DNA of 64,000 bases. Source: Marivita sp. GX14005. Lineage in GTDB: Bacteria; Pseudomonadota; Alphaproteobacteria; Rhodobacterales; Rhodobacteraceae. The translations under genes were made by a program, and so were the position numbers. The stretch covers positions 744,001 through 808,000 of the forward strand of contig NZ_JAMCCQ010000001.1 in the NCBI RefSeq assembly GCF_023370775.1. Direction: 5' to 3'. Below, piece by piece: positions 12,559 to 26,880 of the stretch; positions within the stretch are counted from its first letter, which is position 1, and every line of letters begins with the position of its first letter. The notes beneath the pieces are model-generated. The model had not been told where the DNA came from. It did not search any database and saw only the letters and a list, made by a program, of their open reading frames with translations.

Positions 12559-13698
12559 TCAGCCTTTCATCGAATCCCAAAACCCCTTGACGGATTTGAA
12601 GAAACTTTTGGATTCGGGGTTATTGTCCTCGCTTAGATCCTCGAACTCGCGTAGCAGCTCTTTCTGCCGCGATGTGAGGTTCACGGGCGTCTCGACGGCC
12701 AGTTCGATGAACATATCGCCCTGCCCCTGCCCGCGAAGCGCCGGCATGCCCTTGCTGCGCAGGCGCATTTGACGGCCCGACTGGCTTCCAGCGGGAATCG
12801 ACACGCGACTGCGCCCGCCATCGATCGTTGGCACTTCGATCGTACCCCCAAGCGCGGCGACGGTCATCGACACAGGAACGCGGCAGTGCAGATGCACTCC
12901 GTCACGTTCGAACAATTTGTGCGGGGCGACATCGATGAAAATGTAAAGATCGCCCGGAGGTCCGCCGCGCAGGCCCGCCTCCCCCTCGCCGGCAAGCCGG
13001 ATACGGGTGCCGGTTTCCACGCCTTTGGGAATGTTCACCGACAGCGCGCGCTCCTTCTGAACGCGGCCGGCGCCGGCGCAATTCTTGCACGGGTTCTTGA
13101 TCGTCTGGCCAAGCCCCGAACAGGTTGGACATGTGCGCTCAACGGTGAAGAACCCCTGTGTTGCGCGCACCTTTCCCATGCCGGAGCAAGTGGGGCAGGT
13201 CGTCGGTTCCGCCCCGCCTTCCGCGCCGGAGCCGGAACAGGCATCGCATTGCACCGAAGTGGGCACCTGTATGGTTTTCTGCAAACCACCAAAGGCGTCT
13301 TCAAGCGTGACGCGCAGATTATAGCGCAGATCAGCGCCCCGCGCCGCACGTTGGCGCCCGGCGCCGCGGCCGCCGCCCATGAAATCGCCGAACAGATCGT
13401 CAAATACGTCCGAAAACGCCGACGCGAAATCGCCATGCCCGCCTGCGCCAGGACGCCCGCCGCCCATCCCGCCCTCGAACGCGGCATGACCGTATCGGTC
13501 ATAGGCTGCCTTCTTGTCGGGATCTTTCAGAACCTCATGCGCCTCATTAGCTTCCTTGAACTGCGCTTCCGCATCGGGATTGCTCCCGTTTCGGTCTGGA
13601 TGAAGCTCTTTCGCCTTTCGCCGATACGCTTTCTTGATTTCCTCGGCCGAGGCGCCCTTCGATAGGCCGAGCACATCGTAATAATCACGTTTGGCCAT
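12559..13698 (-). CDS. dnaJ: Chaperone DnaJ
   Basis: 379 residues, full-length type I Hsp40. The J domain has HPD at 33-35, followed by a Gly/Phe-rich linker, four CxxCxGxG zinc repeats ([32 protein letters not shown]) and the C-terminal substrate-binding domains. DnaJ delivers unfolded clients to DnaK and stimulates its ATPase. The start at 13698 is set by AAGGAGG ending 5 bases upstream; the preceding TTG is too close to that site. It follows dnaK by 79 bases that contain a stable hairpin. Confidence 0.98.
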
Positions 13699-13726
13699 CA
13701 AGCCCTCCTTGTCGCGGAACGCAAGA

Positions 13727-13751
13727 GGCCGGCCCGGTATCCGGTCCGGCC
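13727..13751 (-). other. Hairpin in the dnaK-dnaJ intergenic mRNA
   Basis: Arms GGCCGG/CCGGCC (13727-13732, 13746-13751) and CCGG/CCGG (13734-13737, 13741-13744) form a 10-bp stem with one mismatch and a 3-base loop. No T run follows, so it is not a simple terminator; it could protect or process the dnaK message and so adjust the dnaK:dnaJ ratio. Confidence 0.5.
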
Positions 13752-13777
13752 CCTTGATCGGTTCCGTTCAACAAGCG

Positions 13778-15706
13778 TCAAGCGCGCTTGTCGTCGTCGA
13801 GATCCTCAAAATCGGCGTCGACGATGCTGTCGTCATCGTCGTTCGATCCTTCCGGCGCATCGGCGGACGGCGCTTCGGGTTCGCCCTCATCCTGCTGCGA
13901 CTTGTAGATCGCCTCCCCGAGCTTCATCGCCGCTTCGGTGACGTTCTGGATGCCCGACCGGATCTTCTCGGCCGTGGCTTTGTCGTCTTCCAGATCGTCC
14001 TTCAGCGCGGCAACGGCAAGTTCGATCGCCTCGACAGTCGTCGGATCGACCTTGTCGCCGTGATCTTCGAGCGATTTCTCCGTCGAATGGATCAGGCTTT
14101 CCGCCTGGTTGCGGGCCTCGACCAGTTCGCGGCGCTTCTTGTCGGATTCCGCATTGGCCTCGGCTTCCTGAACCATCTTCTCGATATCCTCGTCGGACAG
14201 ACCGCCGGACGCCTGGATCGTGATGTTCTGCTCCTTGCCGGTGCCCTTGTCCTTGGCCGACACGGACACGATGCCGTTGGCATCGATGTCGAAGGTCACC
14301 TCGATCTGCGGCATGCCGCGCGGTGCGGGGGGGATATCCTCAAGATTGAACTGACCGAGCATCTTGTTGTCGGTCGCCATCTCGCGCTCACCCTGGAAGA
14401 CCCGGATCGTCACGGCGTTCTGGTTGTCCTCGGCGGTCGAGAAGATCTGGCTCTTCTTCGTCGGGATCGTGGTGTTGCGATCGATCAGGCGGGTGAACAC
14501 ACCGCCCAAGGTTTCGATCCCGAGCGACAGCGGCGTCACGTCGAGCAAAACCACGTCCTTCACATCGCCTTGCAGAACACCTGCCTGAATGGCGGCGCCC
14601 ATGGCGACGACCTCATCGGGGTTCACACCCTTGTGCGGCTCCTTGCCGAAGAACTTGGTCACTTCCTCGAACACCTTGGGCATCCGCGTCATGCCGCCGA
14701 CAAGGACGACCTCGTCGATATCGTCGGTCTTGAGCCCGGCATCCTTGAGCGCGGCCTGGCACGGCTTGATCGATGCCTTGATCAGATCGCCGACGAGGCT
14801 CTCCAGCTTGGCGCGGGTCAGCTTCATGACGAGGTGCAGCGGCTGCCCGGTTTTCCCGTCCATCGAGATGAACGGCTGGTTAATTTCCGTCTGACTGGAA
14901 CTGGAAAGCTCGATCTTCGCCTTTTCCGCCGCTTCCTTGAGACGCTGCAGCGCCATCTTGTCCTTCGTCAGATCGACGCCGTTCTCTTTCTTGAACTCTT
15001 CGGCGAGGTAGTTGACGATGCGCATGTCGAAATCTTCACCGCCGAGGAAGGTATCGCCATTGGTGGATTTCACTTCGAACAGGCCGTCGTCGATCTCAAG
15101 AATGGTCACGTCGAACGTGCCGCCGCCAAGGTCGTAGACGGCGATCGTCTTGCTGTCTTTCTTGTCGAGGCCATAGGCAAGCGCCGCAGCGGTCGGTTCG
15201 TTGATGATCCGCAGCACTTCAAGCCCGGCGATCTTGCCGGCGTCTTTCGTGGCTTGCCGCTGAGCATCGTTGAAATAGGCGGGCACGGTGATGACGGCCT
15301 GTGTCACCTCTTCGCCCAGATAGCTCTCTGCGGTTTCCTTCATCTTTTGCAGGATGAAGGCGGAGAGCTGCGAGGGAGAGTATTTCTCACCCTTGGCGCG
15401 CACCCATGCGTCGCCATTGCCGCCGTCGATCACCTCGAACGGCATGTTCTTGCGGTCCTTGGCGAGATCGGGATCGTCGTTGCGACGGCCGATCAGGCGC
15501 TTGACGCCGAAGACGGTGTTTTCGGGGTTTGTGACAGCCTGCCGCTTCGCGGGCTGGCCGACGAGACGTTCATCATCGGTAAAGGCGACGATGGAGGGTG
15601 TTGTGCGTGCACCTTCGGAGTTTTCGATCACGCGCGGTTGCGATCCATCCATGATCGCGACGCAGCTGTTGGTCGTTCCGAGGTCAATACCAATCACTTT
15701 GGCCAT
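13778..15706 (-). CDS. dnaK: Chaperone DnaK (Hsp70)
   Basis: 642 residues from ATG 15706, which matches the conserved N-terminus [19 protein letters not shown] and has AAGGGAT about 8 bases upstream; an earlier in-frame start would add eight unsupported residues. The ATPase domain covers about 1-385 (phosphate-1 loop DLGTTNS at 8-14; [10 protein letters not shown] further on), then the substrate-binding domain and helical lid, ending in an Asp/Glu-rich tail. DnaK is the central ATP-dependent folding chaperone and works with DnaJ encoded just downstream. A heat-shock-type promoter lies 113-142 bases upstream. Confidence 0.98.
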
Positions 15707-15818
15707 GTTTTCGATCCCTTCTATTTCCAAGGCGATATCGCGAGACGATGACCCGTTCCGGCATCCCGCCCCGCATTCCGATTTGCCGAAGCCAACTGTC
15801 TTCAGCAGGTCCGCAGGG

Positions 15819-16521: not shown

Positions 16522-17352
16522 TCAGCGTCGCGCTGACCACGACGCCGAGGCGTGTTTGCGGGTGTAGAATTCTCCCATCAACCCGATCATCAGCATCACG
16601 AGCGACAGGTAGACCACATATTCCCAATTGCTGTTTCGCGGGACGTAATTGATGAAGGCAAAGCCGCGTGCCTGATCGATGGTATGAAAGAGCGGGTTCC
16701 AGTCGAACATCGACACCATGAATGCGGGCAAGGAATTGGCCACGAACATCTTGCCCGAGGCGATCATGTTAGCTCGCTTGTAAAGCGTGGCGAGCGTGCC
16801 GGTGAAGCCGGGAAACCACGGCTTCAGCGCCAGAAAAACCAGACCGATCGCACCGCCCGAGAACCACGAGAGCAGCAACATTCCAAGCACCGGGACGGGC
16901 TCGACGATCTCCGTCAGCACATAGGGATTCATCGCGACATCATAGATGAAAAGGATCAGGATCATCGCCAGAACCTGAATATAGAGCGTCGAGATCATCG
17001 CGGATGCAATGGAGATGAATGTGTTCATCGGCGCATGCTGCATCATCGGACTGGCCGGCCCTTCGCTGCCGAACACCGCGCCGACCGCCTTGTTGTGAGT
17101 CATGAACATGAAGATCCCGGTCAACAGGAAAATCACGAAATCTCCCCTGAGCGCGAGACCTTTCAGGCCCATGACCGAAAACATGACGTAGAAGAACAGC
17201 ACGAACATCAGCGATTGAAACACGCTGATCGCGATCGACATGAAGGCGTTTCCATGCGTCTTGCGAATGGATCTGACCGTGTTGTGGTAGATCAACTCGG
17301 CAATATTGACAGCCGAGGAAACCCGGTTTGTCGGGACCGTTTTCTGAAACAC
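16522..17352 (-). CDS. ABC-2 type transporter permease, polysaccharide-export (KpsM/RfbA-like) family
   Basis: 276 residues with about six hydrophobic segments (for example AISVFQSLMFVLFFYVMFSV, LAMILILFIYDVAM, VVYLSLVMLMIGLMGEFYTR), the layout of an ABC-2 permease. The sequence HTIDQARGFAF and the terminal YTRKHASASWSARR resemble capsule/O-antigen exporters. No ATPase subunit is adjacent; the only ABC-2-like ATPases in the window are lptB and the gene at 43777, and neither is an obvious KpsT. Its place directly upstream of, and divergent from, a glycosyltransferase/sulfotransferase cluster suggests a role in glycan export, by inference. Confidence 0.8.
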   Translation of the reverse strand: MFQKTVPTNRVSSAVNIAELIYHNTVRSIRKTHGNAFMSIAISVFQSLMFVLFFYVMFSVMGLKGLALRGDFVIFLLTGIFMFMTHNKAVGAVFGSEGPASPMMQHAPMNTFISIASAMISTLYIQVLAMILILFIYDVAMNPYVLTEIVEPVPVLGMLLLSWFSGGAIGLVFLALKPWFPGFTGTLATLYKRANMIASGKMFVANSLPAFMVSMFDWNPLFHTIDQARGFAFINYVPRNSNWEYVVYLSLVMLMIGLMGEFYTRKHASASWSARR

Positions 17353-17456
17353 TGCTCTTCGCCTTCGCCTCGCTCCGCAAATTCGGCGTCAGTTGCCCTG
17401 ACTTTTATTGCGGATAATCGTTAAGCCGACGATAAGAGGAACAGATTTTCAAATCA

Positions 17457-18275
17457 ATGAAGCCGGGGCGGAACACCGTGGATTATGATGCACTGATGCA
17501 AGTGATGCGCCGTCTGGCGCTCAAGGCGGGCGACGAGATCATGAAGGTCTACCAGACCGACGATCTCGATGTGCGCTCCAAATCCGACGCAAGCCCGGTG
17601 ACCGAAGCGGACGAAGCCGCGGACACGCTGATCTCCGCGGGGCTCCGCGCCGCGTTTCCGGACGTCGCGCTGGTGACCGAGGAGCAATCGGACACGCATG
17701 ATCTCGATGTGCGCGACTTCCTGATCGTCGATCCGCTGGACGGCACGAAGGAGTTCATCCACCGTCGCGGTGATTTCACCGTCAATATCGCGCTTGTCGA
17801 AGGCGGGATGCCGGTACGGGGAGTCGTCTATGCGCCGGCGAAGAACCGCCTTTTCTATACGCTCGCGAATGGGCAAAGCGTCGAGGAAACCGGCCCGTTC
17901 GAGAAGGAAACCGTAGGCGAACAGACCGCCATTCACGTCTCGTCACCCGACGAGGAGGCTTTGATGGTCGTGGCGTCCAAATCGCATCGCGATCAGGCGA
18001 CAGACGATTATATCCGCCGCTATGACGTGAAAGACAGCCGCAGCGCCGGATCATCGCTGAAATTCTGCCTCGTCGCCACCGGAGAGGCCGATTTCTATCC
18101 GCGCCTTGGCCGCACCATGGAATGGGACACCGCCGCCGGGCATGCCGTCCTGAGCGGCGCGGGTGGGCAGGTTCTTCGGCTCGACGATCTGACGCCGCTG
18201 GCCTATGGCAAGCCCGGCTTCGCCAATCCGTTTTTCGTCGCGACCGCACCGGGCATCGATCTTTCGCCTGTCTGA
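17457..18275 (+). CDS. cysQ: 3'(2'),5'-bisphosphate nucleotidase CysQ
   Basis: 272 residues. It belongs to the lithium-sensitive inositol-monophosphatase-like superfamily: metal ligands E75/E76 (VTEEQ) and the DPLDGT motif at 92-97. CysQ converts PAP, the by-product of PAPS-dependent sulfotransfer or sulfate reduction, to AMP. A GTG at 17478 (giving VDYDALMQVMRR) is an equally plausible start, since neither has a good ribosome-binding site. It stands first in a plus-strand run of glycan genes (next start 6 bases after its stop), and a sulfotransferase closes that run, which fits PAP removal. Inositol monophosphatase activity cannot be excluded. Confidence 0.88.
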   Translation: MKPGRNTVDYDALMQVMRRLALKAGDEIMKVYQTDDLDVRSKSDASPVTEADEAADTLISAGLRAAFPDVALVTEEQSDTHDLDVRDFLIVDPLDGTKEFIHRRGDFTVNIALVEGGMPVRGVVYAPAKNRLFYTLANGQSVEETGPFEKETVGEQTAIHVSSPDEEALMVVASKSHRDQATDDYIRRYDVKDSRSAGSSLKFCLVATGEADFYPRLGRTMEWDTAAGHAVLSGAGGQVLRLDDLTPLAYGKPGFANPFFVATAPGIDLSPV

Positions 18276-18281
18276 GCGCAG

Positions 18282-19526
18282 ATGCTCCCCCTGCCGGTCA
18301 GCATCATCGTCGTCAGCCGCGACCGATCGCAGTTCCTGAAAAGGTGCCTGAAGGCGCTATCGCAGCTGGACCATCCGCTGTTCGAGATCGTCGTCGTCGC
18401 CTGCGCGGAAGGTGCGGAGGTCGCGCGCGTCGCGGATCTACGCTGCGGGCGGAAAGTCATTCCCTTCGAACGCGCCAACATCTCCGAAGCGCGCAACGAA
18501 GGCATCGCCCACGCGGCTGGCGATATCATCGCCCTTATCGACGATGACGCGGTGCCGGAGCCGACCTGGCTCTCGCATCTCAGCGAAGTGTTTGCGGATA
18601 AGGCCGTCGCGCAGGCGGGCGGCACCACTTTGAGGCGCAACGGAATTTCGATCCAGCACGCCGCGTTGCTGGTCGATCCGGCCGGGCGCAGCATTGCGGC
18701 GCCGACCACCGGGGCGGAACCGCAAGTGGTGCGCGGTCATGGCGATTTCCGTCCGCGCCTCTGCGGCACCAATATGGCGTTCCGCCGCGACGTCCTGCTT
18801 CGGCACAACGGCTTCGATCCACGCTTCGCCTTCTACCTTGAAGAAACCGACCTGACGCTGCGCATCTCGAAAGGCGGCGGAAAGACGCTCCATGTGCCGA
18901 AGGCAATCGTGCATCACGCCACCGGGCCGAGCCGGTTCAGAGCGCCCGACCGAACCCCGCGCAGGCTTTACGAGATCGGCGCTTCCTCTGCACTTTTCCA
19001 TGCCAAACACACCGCGCCGGACGAACGCGACCACGCGCGAGCCGCATTGATGGGCGAAAGGCGCGGCTGGCTGCTTAAACACATGCAACGGGGAACGCTC
19101 ACGCCGGACGATGTCCACCGCCTGATGCGTGACTTGCAGCGCGGCTATGCAAACCCGATCCCGCCCCCGCGGCTGCCGCACTTTGCGCCGCCGCCCGAAA
19201 CCCCCATCGTGCCGGTGCAGCCCATGACCGGCGAGGACATTTACCTGACTGTAGACTCCGGACGCCGCCGCCCCAGTCTTTGCAAGGCACGCGATTTGGT
19301 GCGGCAGGGGCACAGGGTCACGGTCTTTGATTTTTCGCCGAACGCGCGCTATCATCGCGTCACATTCAATGACGAAGGCTTTTGGCATCATATTGGCGGC
19401 ATATTCGGCCGGGAGGTTCGCACCGAACCGCTTTTTCAGCTTGCGGGACGGCAAGACAGGATCAATCGCACCTTGCGGCGGTTGGCCGGCATCCGCTCGA
19501 AAACCGCTTTGATCGGCAGGAGTTAG
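18282..19526 (+). CDS. Glycosyltransferase, GT2 family
   Basis: 414 residues. A GT-A fold domain covers about 1-250: start PVSIIVVSRDRSQFLKRCL, metal-binding D87-D88-D89 in IDDDAVPEP, and later LEETDLTLRI, a typical GT2 acidic motif. The last 150 residues contain a Pro-rich linker (about 285-310) and a small C-terminal part I do not recognise. It probably adds a sugar to a surface polysaccharide; donor and acceptor are unknown. It starts 6 bases after cysQ and is followed by 112 non-coding bases before galU. Confidence 0.88.
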   Translation: MLPLPVSIIVVSRDRSQFLKRCLKALSQLDHPLFEIVVVACAEGAEVARVADLRCGRKVIPFERANISEARNEGIAHAAGDIIALIDDDAVPEPTWLSHLSEVFADKAVAQAGGTTLRRNGISIQHAALLVDPAGRSIAAPTTGAEPQVVRGHGDFRPRLCGTNMAFRRDVLLRHNGFDPRFAFYLEETDLTLRISKGGGKTLHVPKAIVHHATGPSRFRAPDRTPRRLYEIGASSALFHAKHTAPDERDHARAALMGERRGWLLKHMQRGTLTPDDVHRLMRDLQRGYANPIPPPRLPHFAPPPETPIVPVQPMTGEDIYLTVDSGRRRPSLCKARDLVRQGHRVTVFDFSPNARYHRVTFNDEGFWHHIGGIFGREVRTEPLFQLAGRQDRINRTLRRLAGIRSKTALIGRS

Positions 19527-19638
19527 CAACCCTTTTTTGAAATAAAGCAGTTTCTACAGAGTTATGTCATACACGTTTCGGAATTCCTGTGGCATACCAA
19601 GAGACGCGCAGTAAGCCGCAGCAACAAGGATCCGCCCC

Positions 19639-20529
19639 ATGCGCAGAAAAGTCACCAAAGCAGTTTTTCCAGTCGCTGGCCTCGGCACCCGATTTCTTCC
19701 CGCAACGAAATCCGTTCCCAAGGAGATCATGACGCTGGTGGATCGCCCGCTGGTTCAATACGCCATTGATGAGGCGCGCGCCGCGGGGATCAAGGAATTC
19801 ATCTTCATCACGTCACGCGGCAAGGGCGCGCTTGAAGATTACTTCGATCAGTCGCCCCTGCTGGAACAGGAACTGCGTAAGAAGGGCAAGGACAAGATCC
19901 TCGAGGATCTGAAATCGACCAACATGGAAAGCGGAGCCATCGCCTATATGCGCCAGCACAAGGCGCTCGGGCTGGGTCACGCGGTATGGTGTGCGCGGCG
20001 CCTGATCGGGGATGAGCCCTTTGCGGTAATGCTGCCGGACGACGTGATATCGGCTGAAAAACCTTGCTTGCAACAAATGGTGGAAGCTTACGAGGAAACC
20101 GGCGGCAATATCGTCGCCGCGATGGAAGTTCCGCGCGAGAAAACGTCGAGCTACGGGATACTCGACGTGCAAGACGATATGGGCGCACTCGTGTCGGTGA
20201 AGGGAATGATTGAAAAACCTTCATCCGACGAAGCGCCGTCCAACCTTGCTGTCATCGGACGATACATCCTGCATCCGAGCGTCTTGAAGAACCTTAACAA
20301 GATCAAGACAGGCGCGGGCGGAGAAATTCAGTTGACCGATGCCATCGCACAGGAAATCGACGGAACGGGTGTTTACGGCTATCGCTTTCGCGGCCAACGG
20401 TTCGATTGCGGCTCCAAAGCTGGGTTCCTGCAAGCAACTGTCGCCTTCGGCCTCGCGCGCGACGATCTGAAGGACGACCTGCGCGCCTTCCTGGGCTCCG
20501 TGATGCAGATCGGCAACGCCGCAGAGTAG
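19639..20529 (+). CDS. galU: UTP-glucose-1-phosphate uridylyltransferase
   Basis: 296 residues, normal for bacterial GalU. The nucleotide-binding signature GLGTRFLPATKSVPKEIMTL is near the N-terminus, with the conserved GLGHAVWCAR and FDCGSKAGFL blocks later. The enzyme makes UDP-glucose, the precursor of UDP-galactose and many surface glycans. The 112 bases upstream probably hold its own promoter, although I see no convincing hexamer pair. galE begins 4 bases after the stop, so the two enzymes are likely coupled. Confidence 0.96.
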   Translation: MRRKVTKAVFPVAGLGTRFLPATKSVPKEIMTLVDRPLVQYAIDEARAAGIKEFIFITSRGKGALEDYFDQSPLLEQELRKKGKDKILEDLKSTNMESGAIAYMRQHKALGLGHAVWCARRLIGDEPFAVMLPDDVISAEKPCLQQMVEAYEETGGNIVAAMEVPREKTSSYGILDVQDDMGALVSVKGMIEKPSSDEAPSNLAVIGRYILHPSVLKNLNKIKTGAGGEIQLTDAIAQEIDGTGVYGYRFRGQRFDCGSKAGFLQATVAFGLARDDLKDDLRAFLGSVMQIGNAAE

Positions 20530-20533
20530 CAGG

Positions 20534-21514
20534 ATGAAGATTCTCGTCACCGGCGGCGCAGGCTATATCGGCTCGCACGCGTGCAAGGCGCTGGCCCGCG
20601 CCGGGTTCACGCCCGTGACATTAGACAACCTGTCGACCGGCTGGAAAGACGCCGTGAAGTTCGGCCCCTTGGTCGAGGGCGACCTGTCGCGCCGCGCCGA
20701 TATTGACCGCGCTTTTGCAGAGCATGATCCGAAAGCCGTCCTTCATTTCGCCGCTGTGAGCCGGGTCGATGAGGCCATGCGCGATCCCGCGCTCTACTGG
20801 CGCAACAACGTGCTTGGCTCGCTCAATCTCGTCGAAGCCGCGCTGGCGCATGGGTGCCGCGACATCGTCTTTTCCTCAACCTGCGCCACCTATGGCGATC
20901 AGGACAACGTGCTGCTTGATGAAACGACGCCGCAGCGCCCGATCAACGCCTATGGCGCGTCGAAAGCGGCCATCGAAATCATGCTGCGCGACTTCGAAGC
21001 CGCGCATGGGCTGCGCCATGTGATCTTTCGCTATTTCAACGTCGCCGGAGCCGATCCGGATGCAGAAATCGGCGAGTTCCACCGCCCCGAAACGCATCTC
21101 ATCCCCATCGTGCTCGATGCCGTGGCGGGAAAGAGGGAGGCCATCACCGTATTCGGAACGGACTACCCGACACCGGACGGAACCTGTATCCGCGACTATG
21201 TGCATGTCTCCGATCTGATCGACGCGCATATCCTCGGCTTGCGCTGGTTGCTCGATGGCAAGCCGAGCCGTGATTTCAATCTCGGCACGGGCGACGGTTT
21301 TTCCGTGCGCGAGGTGATCGACGCCGCGCGCCGCGTCACCAATCGCGATGTTCCGACCAACATCGGAGAACGCCGCGCCGGGGATGCCGTCAAGCTCGTT
21401 TCCGGCTCCTCCCGCGCGCGCGAAGAACTCGGCTGGGCTGCCACGCGATCGACCATGCCGAAGATGATCGAGGACGCCTGGCGCTGGCATCAAGTTGCCG
21501 ACTACCGTCAATAG
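20534..21514 (+). CDS. galE: UDP-glucose 4-epimerase
   Basis: 326 residues, an extended short-chain dehydrogenase. The NAD-binding GxxGxxG is G7, G10, G13 (TGGAGYIGS), and the catalytic YxxxK is Y140/K144 (YGASK). GalE interconverts UDP-glucose and UDP-galactose. It takes UDP-glucose from GalU, encoded just upstream, and supplies galactose for the cluster glycosyltransferases. Its 3' end overlaps the next gene by 20 bases. Activity on N-acetylated sugars cannot be ruled out from the sequence. Confidence 0.95.
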   Translation: MKILVTGGAGYIGSHACKALARAGFTPVTLDNLSTGWKDAVKFGPLVEGDLSRRADIDRAFAEHDPKAVLHFAAVSRVDEAMRDPALYWRNNVLGSLNLVEAALAHGCRDIVFSSTCATYGDQDNVLLDETTPQRPINAYGASKAAIEIMLRDFEAAHGLRHVIFRYFNVAGADPDAEIGEFHRPETHLIPIVLDAVAGKREAITVFGTDYPTPDGTCIRDYVHVSDLIDAHILGLRWLLDGKPSRDFNLGTGDGFSVREVIDAARRVTNRDVPTNIGERRAGDAVKLVSGSSRAREELGWAATRSTMPKMIEDAWRWHQVADYRQ

Positions 21515-22703
21515 CCCCGCGCCCGCGCACCTGCTCGACGTCACCCGCACCGTCAGCCGTGCGCACCTGCACCCGACAGGCATAGACCGGATCGAACGCG
21601 CCTACCTCGCGCATCTTGCGCAATGTCCTACTCCGCTATTGGGGCTTCTGCGAACACCGCTCGGCTATCTGCTGCTTGACCGCCAAGGCTGCGCGGATCT
21701 GCATGCGCATTGCGCCCGGCGGCGATGGACATGCGGCGACGCGATCTCTCGCGTCATGCGCCGCACCAATCCGGGGCGCGGCGCCACGGAAGCCGGATTG
21801 CGCCGCATCGCTGTCGATCGCGCCACGCCGCCCGGTCTTGGCGGGATGCTGCGCCGCCATCTGCCGGAAGGCACCGTCTACTTCAATATCGGGCAAACCA
21901 ACTTTACCGACAGGGTGATCGGCGCCGCCCAAAGCGCGCGACTGCGCATCGTTCCCTATCTGCATGACACGATCCCCCTCGATCTCCCCGAAACGCAGAC
22001 GCCGAAGTCACGCCGCAAGTTCGAAAACCTGCTCGACCGCGCCGATAAAAACGCCGATCTGGTTCTGTGCAATTCGCAGGCGACGAAGCGATCCCTGCTC
22101 CGGCATACCGGTCTCGCGCCTTCCAGGATCGAAGTTCTCCTGCCCGGCCTGCCGGACATGACCATCGGCACCGCGCCGGGCGGCCCTTGGTCGGACCGGC
22201 CCTACTTCGTGACCATCGGCACGATAGAGCCGCGCAAGAATATCGGCTTTCTGCTCGATCTCTGGCGTGATTTCGACGGCACGGATGCGCCGCAACTTCT
22301 GATCTGCGGAAAGCGCGGCTGGCTCAGCGAAGAGGTTTTTGCACGGCTCGATAGTGCCGCAAACGTGCATGAACTGCCCAGCTTGCCCGATCCGCAGCTC
22401 TGGGCGCTTCTCGAACAGGCGAATGGCCTGCTGTTTCCGAGCCGCGCCGAAGGGTTCGGATACCCGGCCATTGAAGCTGCGCATCTGAATGTGCCGCTGA
22501 TCTGCAACCCTTTGCCCGCATTTGAAGAGGTGCTTGGCCAATACCCTATTTACGCGGCGGAATCAGACAGCTACGCTTGGCGCAATAAAATCGAGCAACT
22601 GGCGCAAGCACGTCGGGGCCAAAGCGGTGAGCAGAACGAAAAGCGGCGTTTCCGGGCGCCCGAATGGCAGGCACATTTCAACCGGCTGTTTACCCTTCTT
22701 TGA
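21495..22703 (+). CDS. Glycosyltransferase, GT4 (GT-B fold) family
   Basis: 402 residues starting with a TTG inside galE. The C-terminal half is a GT4 domain: FVTIGTIEPRKNIGFLLDLW, then PSRAEGFGYPAIEAAHLNVP with the retaining GT-B E(x7)E motif. The N-terminal half (DVTRTVSRAHLHPTGIDRIE) resembles mannosyl- or fucosyltransferase-type enzymes of exopolysaccharide loci. The product is probably a retaining sugar transferase acting on a lipid-linked intermediate. The 20-base overlap with galE indicates coupling; the non-ATG start is therefore credible. Confidence 0.87.
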   Translation: MPTTVNSPAPAHLLDVTRTVSRAHLHPTGIDRIERAYLAHLAQCPTPLLGLLRTPLGYLLLDRQGCADLHAHCARRRWTCGDAISRVMRRTNPGRGATEAGLRRIAVDRATPPGLGGMLRRHLPEGTVYFNIGQTNFTDRVIGAAQSARLRIVPYLHDTIPLDLPETQTPKSRRKFENLLDRADKNADLVLCNSQATKRSLLRHTGLAPSRIEVLLPGLPDMTIGTAPGGPWSDRPYFVTIGTIEPRKNIGFLLDLWRDFDGTDAPQLLICGKRGWLSEEVFARLDSAANVHELPSLPDPQLWALLEQANGLLFPSRAEGFGYPAIEAAHLNVPLICNPLPAFEEVLGQYPIYAAESDSYAWRNKIEQLAQARRGQSGEQNEKRRFRAPEWQAHFNRLFTLL

Positions 22704-22744
22704 TACCCATGCGGCTTGTGACCGATAAGAAAGAACGCTGACCC

Positions 22745-23755
22745 TTGGGTGTGGTTCAACGATATGGCCTGAGACTTCAGCGCAAACGCTGGAGGATTCG
22801 CGCGTTTCGCAAACGTCGCGAACTCAAGCCGGTATTCAACCGCACCGATCAAATCCGCCGCAACGACATCCTTTTGTTCTGCACCTTTCGGAACGAAGGC
22901 GTCCGCCTGCCATATTTCCTGAAATACTACCGCGACATGGGCGTGTCGCATTTTATCTTCGTCGACAATGACAGCACGGACGGCAGCGCCGAATTGCTCG
23001 CGGATCAACCGGATGTTTCGGTCTGGCACAGCCGCAAGAGCTACAAGCGCTCGCGCTTCGGTATGGATTGGATCAACTGGCTACTGCGCAAATACGGCCA
23101 CGGCCATTGGTGCCTCACCGTCGATCCCGACGAATTCTTCGTCTACCCGTTTTGCGACACCCGCCCCCTGCCCGCGCTCACCGATTGGCTGGAGGCGTCC
23201 TCGATCCGGTCCTTCAGTGCGATGCTGCTGGATATGTATCCCAAGGGGCGCATTGATGCCGTGCCGTATCAGGCCGGGCAGAACCCTCTCGATATCGCAT
23301 GCTGGTTCGATTCCGGAAACTACACGCTCAAGCGCAATCACCTGCTCGGCAACCTGTGGATTCAGGGCGGCGTGCGGTCGCGCGTGTTCTTTGCCGACCG
23401 GCCGGAAGCGGCCCCGGCGCTCAACAAGATCCCGCTGGTCAGGTGGGACAAGCGCTATGTCTATGCCAGCTCGACTCATATGCTCCTGCCGCGCGGGCTC
23501 AATTACGTCTATGACGAATGGGGCGGCGAAAAAGCCTCCGGCGCGCTGTTGCACACCAAGTTCCTAAGCACCTTCAACGAGAAGGCGATGGAAGAGCTGA
23601 AGCGCCGCGAGCATTACGCCGGCAGCCAGGAATACGTCGCCTATGCGAGCGCACTGCGCGACAACCCCGAGCTTTGGTGCAAGTTCTCGGAAAAATACAT
23701 CAACTGGCGGCAGCTCGAAATTCTCGGCCTCATGTCGATGGGCAACTGGGCATGA
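22745..23755 (+). CDS. Glycosyltransferase-like protein (GT2/GT92-like)
   Basis: 336 residues. After a very basic N-terminus, residues about 45-150 hold a GT-A core: LLFCTFRNEGVRLPYFLKYY, FVDNDSTDGS and VDPDEFFV (an Asp-X-Asp-like metal site). This pattern is typical of the Glyco_tranf_2_4/GT92 group found in Rhodobacterales glycan loci. Start is TTG 22745 with GTG 22751 as alternative; neither has a strong ribosome-binding site, so the N-terminus is uncertain by a few residues. The stop overlaps the next gene by ATGA. Confidence 0.85.
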   Translation: MGVVQRYGLRLQRKRWRIRAFRKRRELKPVFNRTDQIRRNDILLFCTFRNEGVRLPYFLKYYRDMGVSHFIFVDNDSTDGSAELLADQPDVSVWHSRKSYKRSRFGMDWINWLLRKYGHGHWCLTVDPDEFFVYPFCDTRPLPALTDWLEASSIRSFSAMLLDMYPKGRIDAVPYQAGQNPLDIACWFDSGNYTLKRNHLLGNLWIQGGVRSRVFFADRPEAAPALNKIPLVRWDKRYVYASSTHMLLPRGLNYVYDEWGGEKASGALLHTKFLSTFNEKAMEELKRREHYAGSQEYVAYASALRDNPELWCKFSEKYINWRQLEILGLMSMGNWA

Positions 23756-25455
23756 GCGTCGGCATCGTCATGCTCGCGCATACCGCGCTGCACCGGGCCG
23801 AACAGGTCGCGCGGCAATGGACAAAAGCGGGATGTCCCGTGGTGATCCATGTCGATAAGGATGTGCCGAACGCGCGCTACCGGATTTTCACCTCGCGCCT
23901 GTCGGACGATCCGCTGATCCGCTTTTCGCGCCGCCATCGCTGCGAATGGGGCACATGGGGGCTGGTCGCCGCCAGTCAGGATGCGAGCGAAATGATGCTG
24001 GCGGAGTTCGAGGATGTCAGCCATGTTTATCTCACCTCCGGGTCCTGCCTTCCGCTGCGCCCCGTTCAGGAACTGATCGACTACCTCAAGGCCCGCCCCA
24101 GAACCGACCATATCGAAAGCGCCACGACCGCCGATGTGCCCTGGACGGTCGGCGGCCTCGACGAGGAACGCTTCACCATGCGGTTCCCGTTCTCCTGGCG
24201 CAAGAGCCGGTATCTGTTCGACCGATTCGTCGAATTTCAGCGCAAGATCGGATATCGCCGCAAGATCCCGGACGGGCTCGTGCCGCATATGGGCAGCCAA
24301 TGGTGGTGCCTCACGAGGCGAACCCTCGCTTCCATCCTCGGCGATCCGAAGCGCAGGCAATATGATCGCTATTTCCGCCATGTCTGGATCCCCGATGAAA
24401 GCTATTTCCAGACGCTCGCGCGGCTCTATTCGACCAATATCGTTAGCCGCTCCCTGACCCTGTCGAAGTTCGATTTTCAGGGCAAACCGCATATTTTCTA
24501 CGACGACCACCTGCAACTTCTGCGCCGGTCCGACTGCTTTGTCGCCCGCAAGATCTGGCACAACGCGGACCGGCTCTACGACACGTTCCTGAACCCGAAA
24601 CCCGGAGAGGTGAGCCTGCAGGAACCCAATCCCGGCAAGATCGATCGCATCTTCGCCAAGGCGGTGGACCGGCGCACACGCGGGCGGCCAGGGCTCTATA
24701 TGCAAAGCCGGTTTCCGAACGAGGATTGGGAAAACGGCGTGACGGCGGCGAAATACTCCGTCTTTCAGGGCTTCACCGAACTTTTCACCGATTTCGAGCC
24801 GTGGCTTGCGCAAATCACGGGCGCGCGGGTTCATGGTCATCTCTTCGCACCGGACCGCGCACATTTCGCCGAGGGCCAGTCCGTGATGAACGGCGCGCTG
24901 TCCGATAGCGCCACGCTGCGCGATTACGATCCCAAGATGTTCCTGACCAACCTGCTCTGGAACACGCGCGGGGAATGCCAGTGTTTCCAGCTTGGGCCGC
25001 GCAGCACGCGGCACGTCATCTGGGACATCGCCAAGGATCCGAATGCGCAGGTTTCCGTCATCAGCGGAGCATGGGCGATCCCGCTTTTCCAATCCAACCG
25101 CACCTTTGCGGATCTGAGACGCGAAGCCGCGCAATTGCAGAAGATTGAAACCGAAATGCTCGATGCGCTGCGCTCGCCCTACTCGAAATGTCGCAAACGC
25201 ATTTGGACCATGGCCGAATTCATCGAAAGCCCGATGGAGGCGATACAGGTCATTATAGATGAAATCGGGCTAGAGCCGCGCCGCCGGTTGACCGAGGCTC
25301 CAAACATTGTCGATCTCACCGGCTTCGGCCAGTTCCTGCAGAATCTCAAGAACCAGGGGATGCACCCCTATCTCATGGGCGATTTCCCCGCCGATCCGAT
25401 TGCCCCATCCGCTGCGCGCAATCCGGCCCCGACACGCCCCTATCTGGTGAAATAA
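23752..25455 (+). CDS. GT14-like (beta-1,6-N-acetylglucosaminyl/xylosyl-transferase-like) protein with a C-terminal DUF5928-type region
   Basis: 567 residues. The first 290 match the core-2/I-branching GT14 type: start VGIVMLAHTALHRAEQVARQ, then HVYLTSGSCLPLRP, GSQWWCLTRR and WIPDESYF with D215-E216. These are the same blocks as in the gene at 45126-46703, so the two are paralogues. The last 270 residues (from about GVTAAKYSVFQGFTELF) form a separate domain that I believe is the DUF5928 region of Rhodobacterales proteins; its function is unknown. ATGA coupling to the gene before and a 3-base gap to the sulfotransferase after make a tight three-gene unit. Confidence 0.8.
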   Translation: MSVGIVMLAHTALHRAEQVARQWTKAGCPVVIHVDKDVPNARYRIFTSRLSDDPLIRFSRRHRCEWGTWGLVAASQDASEMMLAEFEDVSHVYLTSGSCLPLRPVQELIDYLKARPRTDHIESATTADVPWTVGGLDEERFTMRFPFSWRKSRYLFDRFVEFQRKIGYRRKIPDGLVPHMGSQWWCLTRRTLASILGDPKRRQYDRYFRHVWIPDESYFQTLARLYSTNIVSRSLTLSKFDFQGKPHIFYDDHLQLLRRSDCFVARKIWHNADRLYDTFLNPKPGEVSLQEPNPGKIDRIFAKAVDRRTRGRPGLYMQSRFPNEDWENGVTAAKYSVFQGFTELFTDFEPWLAQITGARVHGHLFAPDRAHFAEGQSVMNGALSDSATLRDYDPKMFLTNLLWNTRGECQCFQLGPRSTRHVIWDIAKDPNAQVSVISGAWAIPLFQSNRTFADLRREAAQLQKIETEMLDALRSPYSKCRKRIWTMAEFIESPMEAIQVIIDEIGLEPRRRLTEAPNIVDLTGFGQFLQNLKNQGMHPYLMGDFPADPIAPSAARNPAPTRPYLVK

Positions 25456-25458
25456 GCC

Positions 25459-26880
25459 ATGCAGGGCGGTTTCGATCATTTCGTGATCTTTGCCGGAATG
25501 AGAACGGGCTCGAACCTGCTTGAGGATTATCTTAACCGGATCGACGGCATCACCTCGCATGGAGAGGCGTTCAATCCCAATTTCATCGGCTATCCCAACA
25601 GCACCGAGATTCTCGGCGTCACTCATCGCGCCCGCGAAGACCGCCCCGAGAAGCTGCTGAAGGCCATTCGAACGCGAAGCGATGGCTTGGGCGGGTTCCG
25701 CTTCTTCCACGATCACGACCCGCGCATCCTGCCCGCGCTTCTGGCCGATCCGCGCTGCGCCAAGATCGTCCTGACGCGCAATCCGGTGGACAGCTATGTG
25801 AGCCTGCAGATCGCGCGCGCGACGGATCAGTGGAAACTGACCGATGTCAAAAACCGCAAGACGGCGACCGCGCAGTTCGATGCGGTCGAGTTCGAACGGC
25901 ATTTCGGGGAGGTTCAGGCCTTCCAACTCGAGATTCTGCGCGCGCTGCAGGTGACGGGCCAAACCGCCTTTTACATCGGCTACGACGATCTGAACGATCC
26001 CGAGATCCTGAGCGGTCTGGCAAGCTGGTTGGGTGTTCCCACCCCGCCCGAGCGTTTCGAGAGCAAGCTCAAGCCGCAGAACCCGCAAAGCCTGCGCGAG
26101 AAGGTCGAAAATTTCGATCAGATGGAAAGCGCCTTGCGCAACTTCGATCGTTTCGATCTGTCGAGAACCCCGAATTTCGAGCCGCGGCGCGGCCCGGTCG
26201 TGCCGTCTTACGTGACCCACCCGTCATACCCGCTCCTCTTCATGCCCATGCGCTCTGGCCCCGAAGCGGCTGTAACGGACTGGATGGCGCAGCTCGGCGG
26301 CGGCGAGCTCGTAACTCGGCACAACCAGAAAACGCTCCGCGCGTGGATGAGCGAGCACCCCGGCCACCGCCGCTTTACCGTCTTGCGGCATCCCGTGGCA
26401 CGTGTCCACGCCGCCTTTTGCGACAAGATAGTGAACACCGGGCCGGGAAGCTTCGCAAAAATCCGCAACCAACTGGCGCGCTTTCACTGCATCCCTTTAC
26501 CTGACGCGTCGATGCAGGACTCCGTGACCTACAAACAGGCGTTCAAGGATTTCCTGCGCTTTCTGCGGCTCAACCTTAACGGCCAGACAAGCATTCGTGT
26601 TGATGCGCATTGGGCGAGCCAGACTGCAGTGCTTCAAGGCATGTCGGAATTCTGCCTCCCCGATCACCTGTTTCGCGAGGCCGACTTGCCCGACGCGCTA
26701 CCGGCCTTGGCAATGCAACTCGGCATCTCGGATGCGCCGATTTTAGAGCAGACGGATCCCCACGGCAGCACCCTATCGGCGATTTACGATGACGAGATCG
26801 AAACGCTCTGTCGCGACGCCTATTCGCGCGATTACATGATGTTCGGATTTTCGGACTGGCCGGACGCTCGCCCGGCCTGA
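25459..26880 (+). CDS. Tandem-domain sulfotransferase (Stf0/NodH-like), second domain degenerate
   Basis: 473 residues, about twice a single sulfotransferase. Domain 1 (about 5-240) has the 5'-phosphosulfate loop MRTGSN at 14-19 and the 3'-phosphate motif RNPVDSYVS at 107-115. Domain 2 (about 255-473) repeats the plan: FMPMRSG at 261-267 and RHPVARVHAAF at 310-320, but the Ser expected 8 residues after the Arg is Ala318 and the phosphate loop is altered. Domain 1 should transfer sulfate from PAPS, probably to a sugar made by the upstream enzymes; domain 2 may bind the acceptor. CysQ in the same cluster would remove PAP. Confidence 0.8.
   Translation: MQGGFDHFVIFAGMRTGSNLLEDYLNRIDGITSHGEAFNPNFIGYPNSTEILGVTHRAREDRPEKLLKAIRTRSDGLGGFRFFHDHDPRILPALLADPRCAKIVLTRNPVDSYVSLQIARATDQWKLTDVKNRKTATAQFDAVEFERHFGEVQAFQLEILRALQVTGQTAFYIGYDDLNDPEILSGLASWLGVPTPPERFESKLKPQNPQSLREKVENFDQMESALRNFDRFDLSRTPNFEPRRGPVVPSYVTHPSYPLLFMPMRSGPEAAVTDWMAQLGGGELVTRHNQKTLRAWMSEHPGHRRFTVLRHPVARVHAAFCDKIVNTGPGSFAKIRNQLARFHCIPLPDASMQDSVTYKQAFKDFLRFLRLNLNGQTSIRVDAHWASQTAVLQGMSEFCLPDHLFREADLPDALPALAMQLGISDAPILEQTDPHGSTLSAIYDDEIETLCRDAYSRDYMMFGFSDWPDARPA

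Follow-up and report, generated by a model that had tools for sequence, protein, structure and literature searches.

A candidate locus for the assembly, sulfation and Kps-type export of a cell-surface glycan, vertically inherited in the Rhodobacteraceae

Introduction

In Vibrio sp. KMM 8419, a bacterium with a sulfated capsular polysaccharide of determined structure, the capsule cluster brings together nucleotide-sugar genes, glycosyltransferases (GTs), KpsMTE-type export by an ATP-binding cassette (ABC) transporter, supply of 3'-phosphoadenosine 5'-phosphosulfate (PAPS) and sulfotransferases, according to the parts of the report consulted (PMC11641403). A comparable set of genes is found at positions 16522 to 26880 of the window, i.e., the whole 64,000-nt stretch of Marivita sp. 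GX14005 that was analyzed (contig NZ_JAMCCQ010000001.1; genome size 3.45 Mb), and is the subject of the present work. Second copies of cysC, cysN, and cysD lie inside the Vibrio cluster, whereas PAPS synthesis is encoded elsewhere in the Marivita genome. The GTs named for Vibrio are GT2, GT61, GT4, and GT1+GT4, while a protein associating a GT14-like domain with a C-terminal DUF5927 domain is central here; in addition, cysQ, which is located inside the Marivita cluster, is not mentioned in the main text of the Vibrio report (PMC11641403).

Regarding export, the KpsMT-KpsE structure 8tsh represents ABC-transporter-dependent capsule export in the portion of the source consulted (PMC11041684). 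Relatives of KpsM, KpsT, KpsE, KpsS, and KpsC are all encoded in the Marivita genome, but they are dispersed, the KpsM-like gene lying at the glycan locus, KpsT-KpsE apart from it and KpsS-KpsC at a third place. As in the NodH/Stf0 carbohydrate sulfotransferases, the fold and the PAPS motifs are found in the N-terminal half of the sulfotransferase of the locus, although this half is here fused to an apparently degenerate Sulfotransfer_2-like half. The PF02485 domain is shared with the GT14 family (core-2/I-branching enzymes and protein xylosyltransferases), but the protein described here has an additional C-terminal DUF5927. The capsule-receptor cluster of the gene transfer agent RcGTA in Rhodobacter capsulatus (rcc01081-01086 and lspL1, with wzc, wzb, and wza for export) was considered as the same system and set apart by the genes named in the descriptions available in part (PMC10218006). 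A published description of the present gene set was not found among the papers listed in the literature searches, which covered titles and abstract openings and few subscription journals.

On balance, the reading favored here, with restrained confidence, is that the locus encodes enzymes that build and sulfate a glycan of the cell surface, with Kps-type export, and is vertically inherited in the Rhodobacteraceae. Judged from sequence, it is a real and family-wide locus, the glycan of which is probably sulfated and probably exported by Kps-type proteins. An earlier note on the window had already proposed a sulfated glycan. This proposal gains from the presence of a PAPS-type sulfotransferase with intact motifs, a Sat-CysC fusion, CysQ, and Kps relatives, while sulfation itself is what we infer from them. 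Roseobacters are abundant marine bacteria, living on algae and in biofilms. If it is true that 204 of the 248 family genomes examined encode the making of a sulfated surface glycan, this would bear on attachment, on receptors for phages and gene transfer agents, and on the cycling of marine sulfated polysaccharides.

Conservation of the Block in the Rhodobacteraceae

The genes at the center of the locus are a plus-strand gene (23752..25455) whose product is GT14-like over residues 1-265 (PF02485, 65.2 bits) and carries DUF5927 over residues 266-567 (PF19349, 513.9 bits), and the following plus-strand gene (25459..26880), which encodes a two-domain sulfotransferase of 473 aa. DUF5927 can be found in 204 of the 248 family genomes (82%) and is absent from all 14 control genomes, and the five genomes with a match among 385 of the class all belong to the Rhodobacteraceae, the window's own family; in the searches made, strong matches are confined to this family, with weak traces in Shinella. 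The sulfotransferase profile matches 205 of the 248 genomes. Both proteins are present in 200 genomes and neither in 39, with DUF5927 only in four (G057, G074, G178, and G236) and the sulfotransferase only in five (G068, G133, G148, G176, and G214), giving a Fisher p of 2e-35 in a statistic that ignores phylogeny. Co-occurrence in the family had been set beforehand as a test of the sulfated-glycan proposal, and it is borne out with nine discordant genomes, mostly through vertical inheritance. Since the co-occurrence is largely the vertical inheritance of a fixed block, the association statistics overstate its independence, which has to be counted against the reading favored here.

G171 was counted as having both proteins by a weak match on another contig (E 5e-12); there, ptsN directly adjoins the GT14 gene and the sulfotransferase is missing from the locus. 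With wider candidate scoring, G074 and G178 gain weak sulfotransferase matches away from GT14 (E 8e-15 and 2e-4). As for the genomes with a sulfotransferase only, the matches are weak or short in G068 (E 2e-4), G176 (E 2e-11), and G214 (E 1e-3), the gene is cut by a contig end in G133, and only the C-terminal half is left in G148, preceded by genes of IS21/IS3 type (an IstB match at E 4e-77 and an integrase core at E 3e-25). No complete sulfotransferase without GT14-DUF5927 was found among the 248 family genomes, yet GT14 occurs without an adjacent sulfotransferase in G057, G171, G178, and G074. This asymmetry suggests that the sulfotransferase may depend on the product of GT14. In a set of 20 loci from genomes that are divergent or discordant, 15 have both GT14 and the sulfotransferase, adjacent in 15/15, the others having GT14 alone (three loci) or a sulfotransferase remnant alone (two loci). 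In the G148 locus (L204:4300-10779), recombinase, integrase-core, and IstB genes occupy the expected place of GT14 and of the N-terminal half of the sulfotransferase.

A profile scan of genome contigs confirmed at least 588 loci, of which the best 80 (GT14 identity 71-91%) were kept; among these, the closest genus-named relatives by GT14 identity are Marivita (88-90%). The genes for the PF13704 GT, GT14, and the sulfotransferase stand side by side in all 80. The median spacing of the last two is 6 bases, and 70 of the 77 pairs measured are no more than 20 bases apart. The flanking ptsN is detected in 72/80 loci and dnaK in 56/80, contig ends limiting some, and galE in 63/80, some of the loci being cut likewise; cysQ is divergent from the permease gene in 69/69 relatives having both. 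As the flanks are conserved in most loci, the locus is, by its gene order, a vertically inherited chromosomal block of Rhodobacteraceae gene content. Rearrangements can nevertheless be found. Among the 73 loci in which 4 kb or more follow the sulfotransferase, ptsN and hpf are missing from six (L051, L056, L080, L095, L096, and L111), yet the three genes are kept, and the ptsN-rnd block is inverted in L045. Moreover, a second PF13704 copy was seen and no GT4 in 17/80 loci (L059, L067-L070, L080-L082, L084-L086, L090, L096, L098, L100, L102, and L111), and this may be the mark of different glycan structures.

Such strong synteny can also be read in another way, in which the target of the sulfotransferase (a glycolipid, a protein tyrosine, or a small molecule) lies outside the pathway and its placement is simply frozen gene order. 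The whole block being syntenic with unrelated genes, the tyrosylprotein sulfotransferase among the fold matches described below and the persistence of GT14 without sulfotransferase in G057, G171, and G178 all speak for this explanation and against the favored one. It is considered unlikely, however, given the close spacing to GT14, the maintenance of the block in the six loci devoid of ptsN and hpf, and the existence of a second GT14-sulfotransferase pair.

Sulfotransferase and Sulfate Supply

The AlphaFold2 model of the sulfotransferase has a mean pLDDT of 87.5. In a Foldseek comparison of the two-domain model with the PDB, the best match is Stf0 (1tex, E 7.5e-5, probability 1.00), followed by a bacterial sulfotransferase, TPST2, heparan sulfate 3-O-sulfotransferases, and NDST. 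A profile of the NodH/Stf0-like N-terminal half matches NodH (9vki) with an E of 1.6e-18. This half keeps MR[TS]GSN, GE, and R...S (R107 and S115) in 19/19 diverse sequences, of which the other 18 share 28-54% identity with the protein of the window; MR[TS]GSN and R107/S115 are what we take to be the 5'- and 3'-PAPS motifs, respectively. The C-terminal half (PF03567, E 5.4e-8) is devoid of the P-loop and of the 3' serine in the same 19 sequences, and it is related to the Sulfotransfer_2 protein that adjoins a second type of GT14 protein, GT14-DUF5928 (hhalign 97.5, E 6e-12). By these motifs, the N-terminal half is predicted to be a PAPS-type sulfotransferase and the C-terminal half a degenerate, Sulfotransfer_2-like domain. 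Therefore, of the tandem sulfotransferase announced in the earlier note, the two domains stand, but the PAPS motifs and GE are kept only in the first. The N-terminal half would act after GT14 and move sulfate from PAPS onto the sugar added by GT14 or onto a neighboring one.

With regard to the donor, the genome has a single APS-kinase match, which is a Sat-CysC fusion of 628 aa (NF004040, 1039.7 bits for a cut-off of 669). CysQ, the 3'(2'),5'-bisphosphate nucleotidase that removes adenosine 3',5'-bisphosphate (PAP), is encoded within the locus itself (17457..18275, plus strand), and its identification from the letters alone was correct (TIGR01331, 265 bits for a cut-off of 228.8); it would clear the PAP released by sulfotransfer. 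The single PAPS_reduct match is a CysH harboring CC and CxxC cysteines, which are the mark of adenosine 5'-phosphosulfate (APS) reductases. This CysH passes the cut-offs of NF002537 and TIGR00434, both named phosphoadenylyl-sulfate reductase, and stays below those of TIGR02055 (APS reductase, 169 bits) and TIGR02057 (PAPS reductase, 150 bits), so that the family models do not settle between the two activities. If CysH is an APS reductase, PAPS would be free from cysteine synthesis and would therefore serve mainly for sulfotransfer.

GT14 and DUF5927

The GT14-like domain scores well above the PF02485 cut-off of 23.4 bits, and 23/23 diverse members match the family at E up to 0.1. Its closest solved relative is xylosyltransferase 1 (XT1), a weak match with an E of 0.013 over the whole sequence and 0.17 for the stretch alone. 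Glu216 is invariant in 23/23 members and lies inside the stretch aligned to PAES of XT1 in that weak match (E 0.013); a glutamate is the base in GT14 enzymes according to the part of the source consulted (PMC7185993). By homology, Glu216 would be the catalytic base, and GT14 would put on a further sugar, perhaps a branch and possibly GlcNAc or xylose. The resemblance to animal proteoglycan enzymes that had been put forward would be one of GT14 kinship and nothing closer.

The AlphaFold2 model of the GT14-DUF5927 protein is poor (mean pLDDT 58). When an alignment of 22 DUF5927 members (23-69% identity to the domain of the window) is compared with the N-terminal half of the sulfotransferase, the two align end to end over 139 columns with an hhalign probability of 93.8 (E 1.7e-7), against 0.2 for the unrelated PF13704 GT used as a control. 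An earlier comparison of the same pair gave 91.2, and 78.8 with query and template swapped; in that comparison, reversed profiles gave 0.3-0.4 and the best of 60 column shuffles reached 18.3 vs a score of 49.7. The order of strands (E) and helices (H) in DUF5927 (E335-339, H348-356, E359-363, H387-403, E410-413, H420-427, E432-438, H442-474, E481-486, H487-505) also follows that of the sulfotransferase N-terminal half (E7-12, H18-27, E31-33, H56-73, E77-82, H91-96, E100-106, H109-166, E171-174, H181-190), as compared by eye on the predicted models with neighboring helices merged. The PAPS loop [RK][ST]G[ST] is absent from DUF5927 in 23/23 members, L199 is the only one with HGE at the corresponding position, and an arginine is found near the 3' position in 5/23. 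Because it aligns with the NodH-like half but lacks the PAPS loop, DUF5927 looks like a dead, i.e., degenerate, sulfotransferase-fold domain.

Several results weigh against this interpretation. Searched by sequence against the PDB, DUF5927 on its own retrieved no sulfotransferase, Pfam gave no sulfotransferase match for the domain, and its single-profile sulfotransferase matches are weak. Foldseek, run on the model of pLDDT 58, gave no match at E up to 0.001, the top rows being siroheme synthase and the tyrosylprotein sulfotransferase 3ap3 coming at rank 25 (E 0.09). With shallow alignments, the comparison of DUF5927 with the sulfotransferase yielded nothing; since the positive control between the N- and C-terminal halves of the sulfotransferase failed likewise (3.3), the comparison was run again on alignments that included divergent members, and this control was still low with the deeper alignments (7.6). 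In the latter, DUF5927 gave only 0.3 with the C-terminal half and 0.4 with the DUF5928-linked sulfotransferase. No publication on DUF5927 was found in the literature searched, and its link with the sulfotransferase provides a first, testable role for this domain. DUF5927 and the C-terminal half of the sulfotransferase may be worn sulfotransferase-type domains, probably involved in acceptor binding or in the coupling of GT14 with the sulfotransferase next to it.

The degeneracy of both domains is also the argument that can be raised for an unsulfated glycan, the sulfotransferase-like protein then having another role, and to that extent it counts against sulfation. With all three N-terminal motifs kept in each of the 19 sequences, this explanation is deemed very improbable.

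Other Associations of GT14 with Sulfotransferases

Many of the 26 genomes scanned with the GT14 profile also have a paralogue. On a Paracoccus plasmid, this paralogue is annotated as DUF5928 and adjoins a "sulfotransferase family protein", namely a Sulfotransfer_2 protein. A divergent Sulfotransfer_2 gene is located next to GT14-DUF5928 in 19 of 20 genomes and is lacking in G001. A paralogue had been matched in 21 genomes, of which G236, with a partial match, was left out; the 20 come from the divergent or discordant set rather than from a random draw. Like the first pair, the DUF5928-sulfotransferase pair is found in a largely syntenic setting. DUF5928 can be linked to DUF5927 (hhalign 92), and its direct comparison with the two sulfotransferase profiles shows no link (0.8 and 0.14). 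A HIT-family gene follows GT14-DUF5928 in 17/20 genomes (L286-L305).

In two Shinella plasmids, GT14 directly precedes a PF13704 GT, and a Sulfotransfer_3 protein is encoded about 5-6 kb away; similarity of these GT14 proteins to DUF5927 is weak and below cut-off (E 1e-4 and 2e-5). GT14 is therefore associated with sulfotransferases in at least two distinct chromosomal contexts. It can tentatively be imagined that the two GT14 types, with DUF5927 or DUF5928, each stand beside a dedicated sulfotransferase, the dead sulfotransferase-like domain at the end of each GT14 presenting the newly glycosylated acceptor to the active sulfotransferase in a sugar-then-sulfate relay that would yield a sulfated envelope glycan in most bacteria of the roseobacter family, but this extension is rather doubtful.

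Export of the Glycan

The permease gene (16522..17352, minus strand) encodes a putative KpsM-like membrane subunit of an ABC exporter (276 aa). It matches Pfam ABC2_membrane (E 0.043) and NCBIfam VexB (E 2.6e-5) below their cut-offs, and a profile made of 27 permease relatives matches KpsM of the 8tsh structure (E 3.3e-6). Elsewhere in the genome, relatives of KpsS and KpsC are located at 490-495 kb of contig C1, and KpsT (219 aa) is paired with KpsE (525 aa) on contig C4. Capsule_synth and ABC_tran are above the Pfam cut-offs in this genome; the NCBIfam matches to VexB, VexC, BexC/CtrB/KpsE, and KpsS are all below theirs, and the KpsC-like protein has no specific match. KpsM and KpsT are not encoded together, no permease-profile match being found near KpsT-KpsE in 17/17 loci (stretches of 9-14 kb from this genome and 16 selected relatives). 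KpsE is detected (E up to 0.001) in 225/248 genomes, including all 204 with DUF5927, and strong KpsE matches (E below 1e-60) are associated with DUF5927 by Fisher test, with 201/204 genomes having the domain vs 11/44 without it.

The KpsM-like permease would export the product together with the separately encoded KpsT-KpsE. To the debit of the favored reading, this pairing of the permease of the window with KpsT-KpsE of C4 is drawn from conservation, as another KpsM/KpsT/KpsE-like set exists on contig C10. Besides this second set, C10 (L213, 33 kb) encodes GTs and a ParB-like protein, the latter matched below cut-off, and is perhaps a plasmid. A PF03567 sulfotransferase of 313 aa (L212:7532-8473) is also encoded upstream of KpsT-KpsE on C4. 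It was considered as family-wide support and is treated as accessory, with matches in 31/248 genomes including this one, those elsewhere being weak and the best of them in G042 (E 7e-23, 28% identity).

Whether such a glycan is a capsule can be questioned, as the GTs and the sulfotransferase could modify the core or the O-chain of lipopolysaccharide (LPS), for which rhizobial LPS sulfation offers an analogue. The solved sequence relative of the sulfotransferase is named "LPS sulfotransferase NodH", and immediately downstream the opposite strand carries lptB, lptA, and rnd, although they form a separate conserved block. Wzt carries an O-antigen-binding C-terminal domain, for which the short KpsT leaves no room. 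Considering also the presence of KpsS and KpsC in the genome and the occurrence of KpsE in every DUF5927 genome, modification of LPS is regarded as improbable.

Gene Organization of the Locus

The genes named in the earlier note are all recovered between 16522 and 26880 with Pfam and NCBIfam profiles, although their arrangement is not quite as it had been described. According to family profile scans, the block is flanked by dnaK/alkB on one side and by the minus-strand ptsN-hpf-lptB-lptA on the other, and consists of nine genes, namely the permease gene and eight plus-strand genes from cysQ to the sulfotransferase. The permease gene had been placed in the same chain; it is in fact encoded on the minus strand and diverges from cysQ. 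The successive plus-strand spacings are 6, 112, 4, -20, 41, -4, and 3 bases, so that instead of a series mostly chained by overlaps there are two overlaps (-20 and -4) in seven joints, four gaps of 3-41 bases and one of 112. With these spacings, an operon of the plus-strand genes is plausible.

The nucleotide-sugar genes are galU, encoding a UTP-glucose-1-phosphate uridylyltransferase (19639..20529, plus strand; TIGR01099, 342.5 bits for a cut-off of 326.8), and galE, encoding a UDP-glucose 4-epimerase (20534..21514, plus strand; TIGR01179, 405.3 bits for a cut-off of 262.3). From their families, these enzymes would supply UDP-Glc and UDP-Gal to the pathway. The chain would then be built, perhaps on a Kdo-lipid anchor made by KpsS/KpsC, by three GTs encoded on the plus strand, i.e., a GT2 of 414 aa (18282..19526; PF13641, E 8.4e-21; PF00535, E 3e-16), a GT4 of 402 aa (21495..22703; PF00534, E 4.7e-14; PF13692, E 1.5e-12), and a PF13704 family 2 GT of 336 aa with a TTG start (22745..23755; E 1.6e-35).

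By equivalence with relatives, the GT14 gene starts at 23752, in an ATGA overlap with the PF13704 GT gene; the open reading frame (ORF) starting at 23518 is over-extended, the relatives beginning at the equivalent of 23752. A plus-strand ORF (16552-17424), tried as the permease, has no family match and is antisense to the real permease gene. Finally, an ORF of 686 aa (13691-15751, plus strand) antisense to dnaK matches Pfam NAD-GH with an E of 6.5e-178, the opposite strand matching Hsp70 with an E of 4.5e-274; this match is an instance of the antisense-dnaK artefact for which the NAD-GH family is known.

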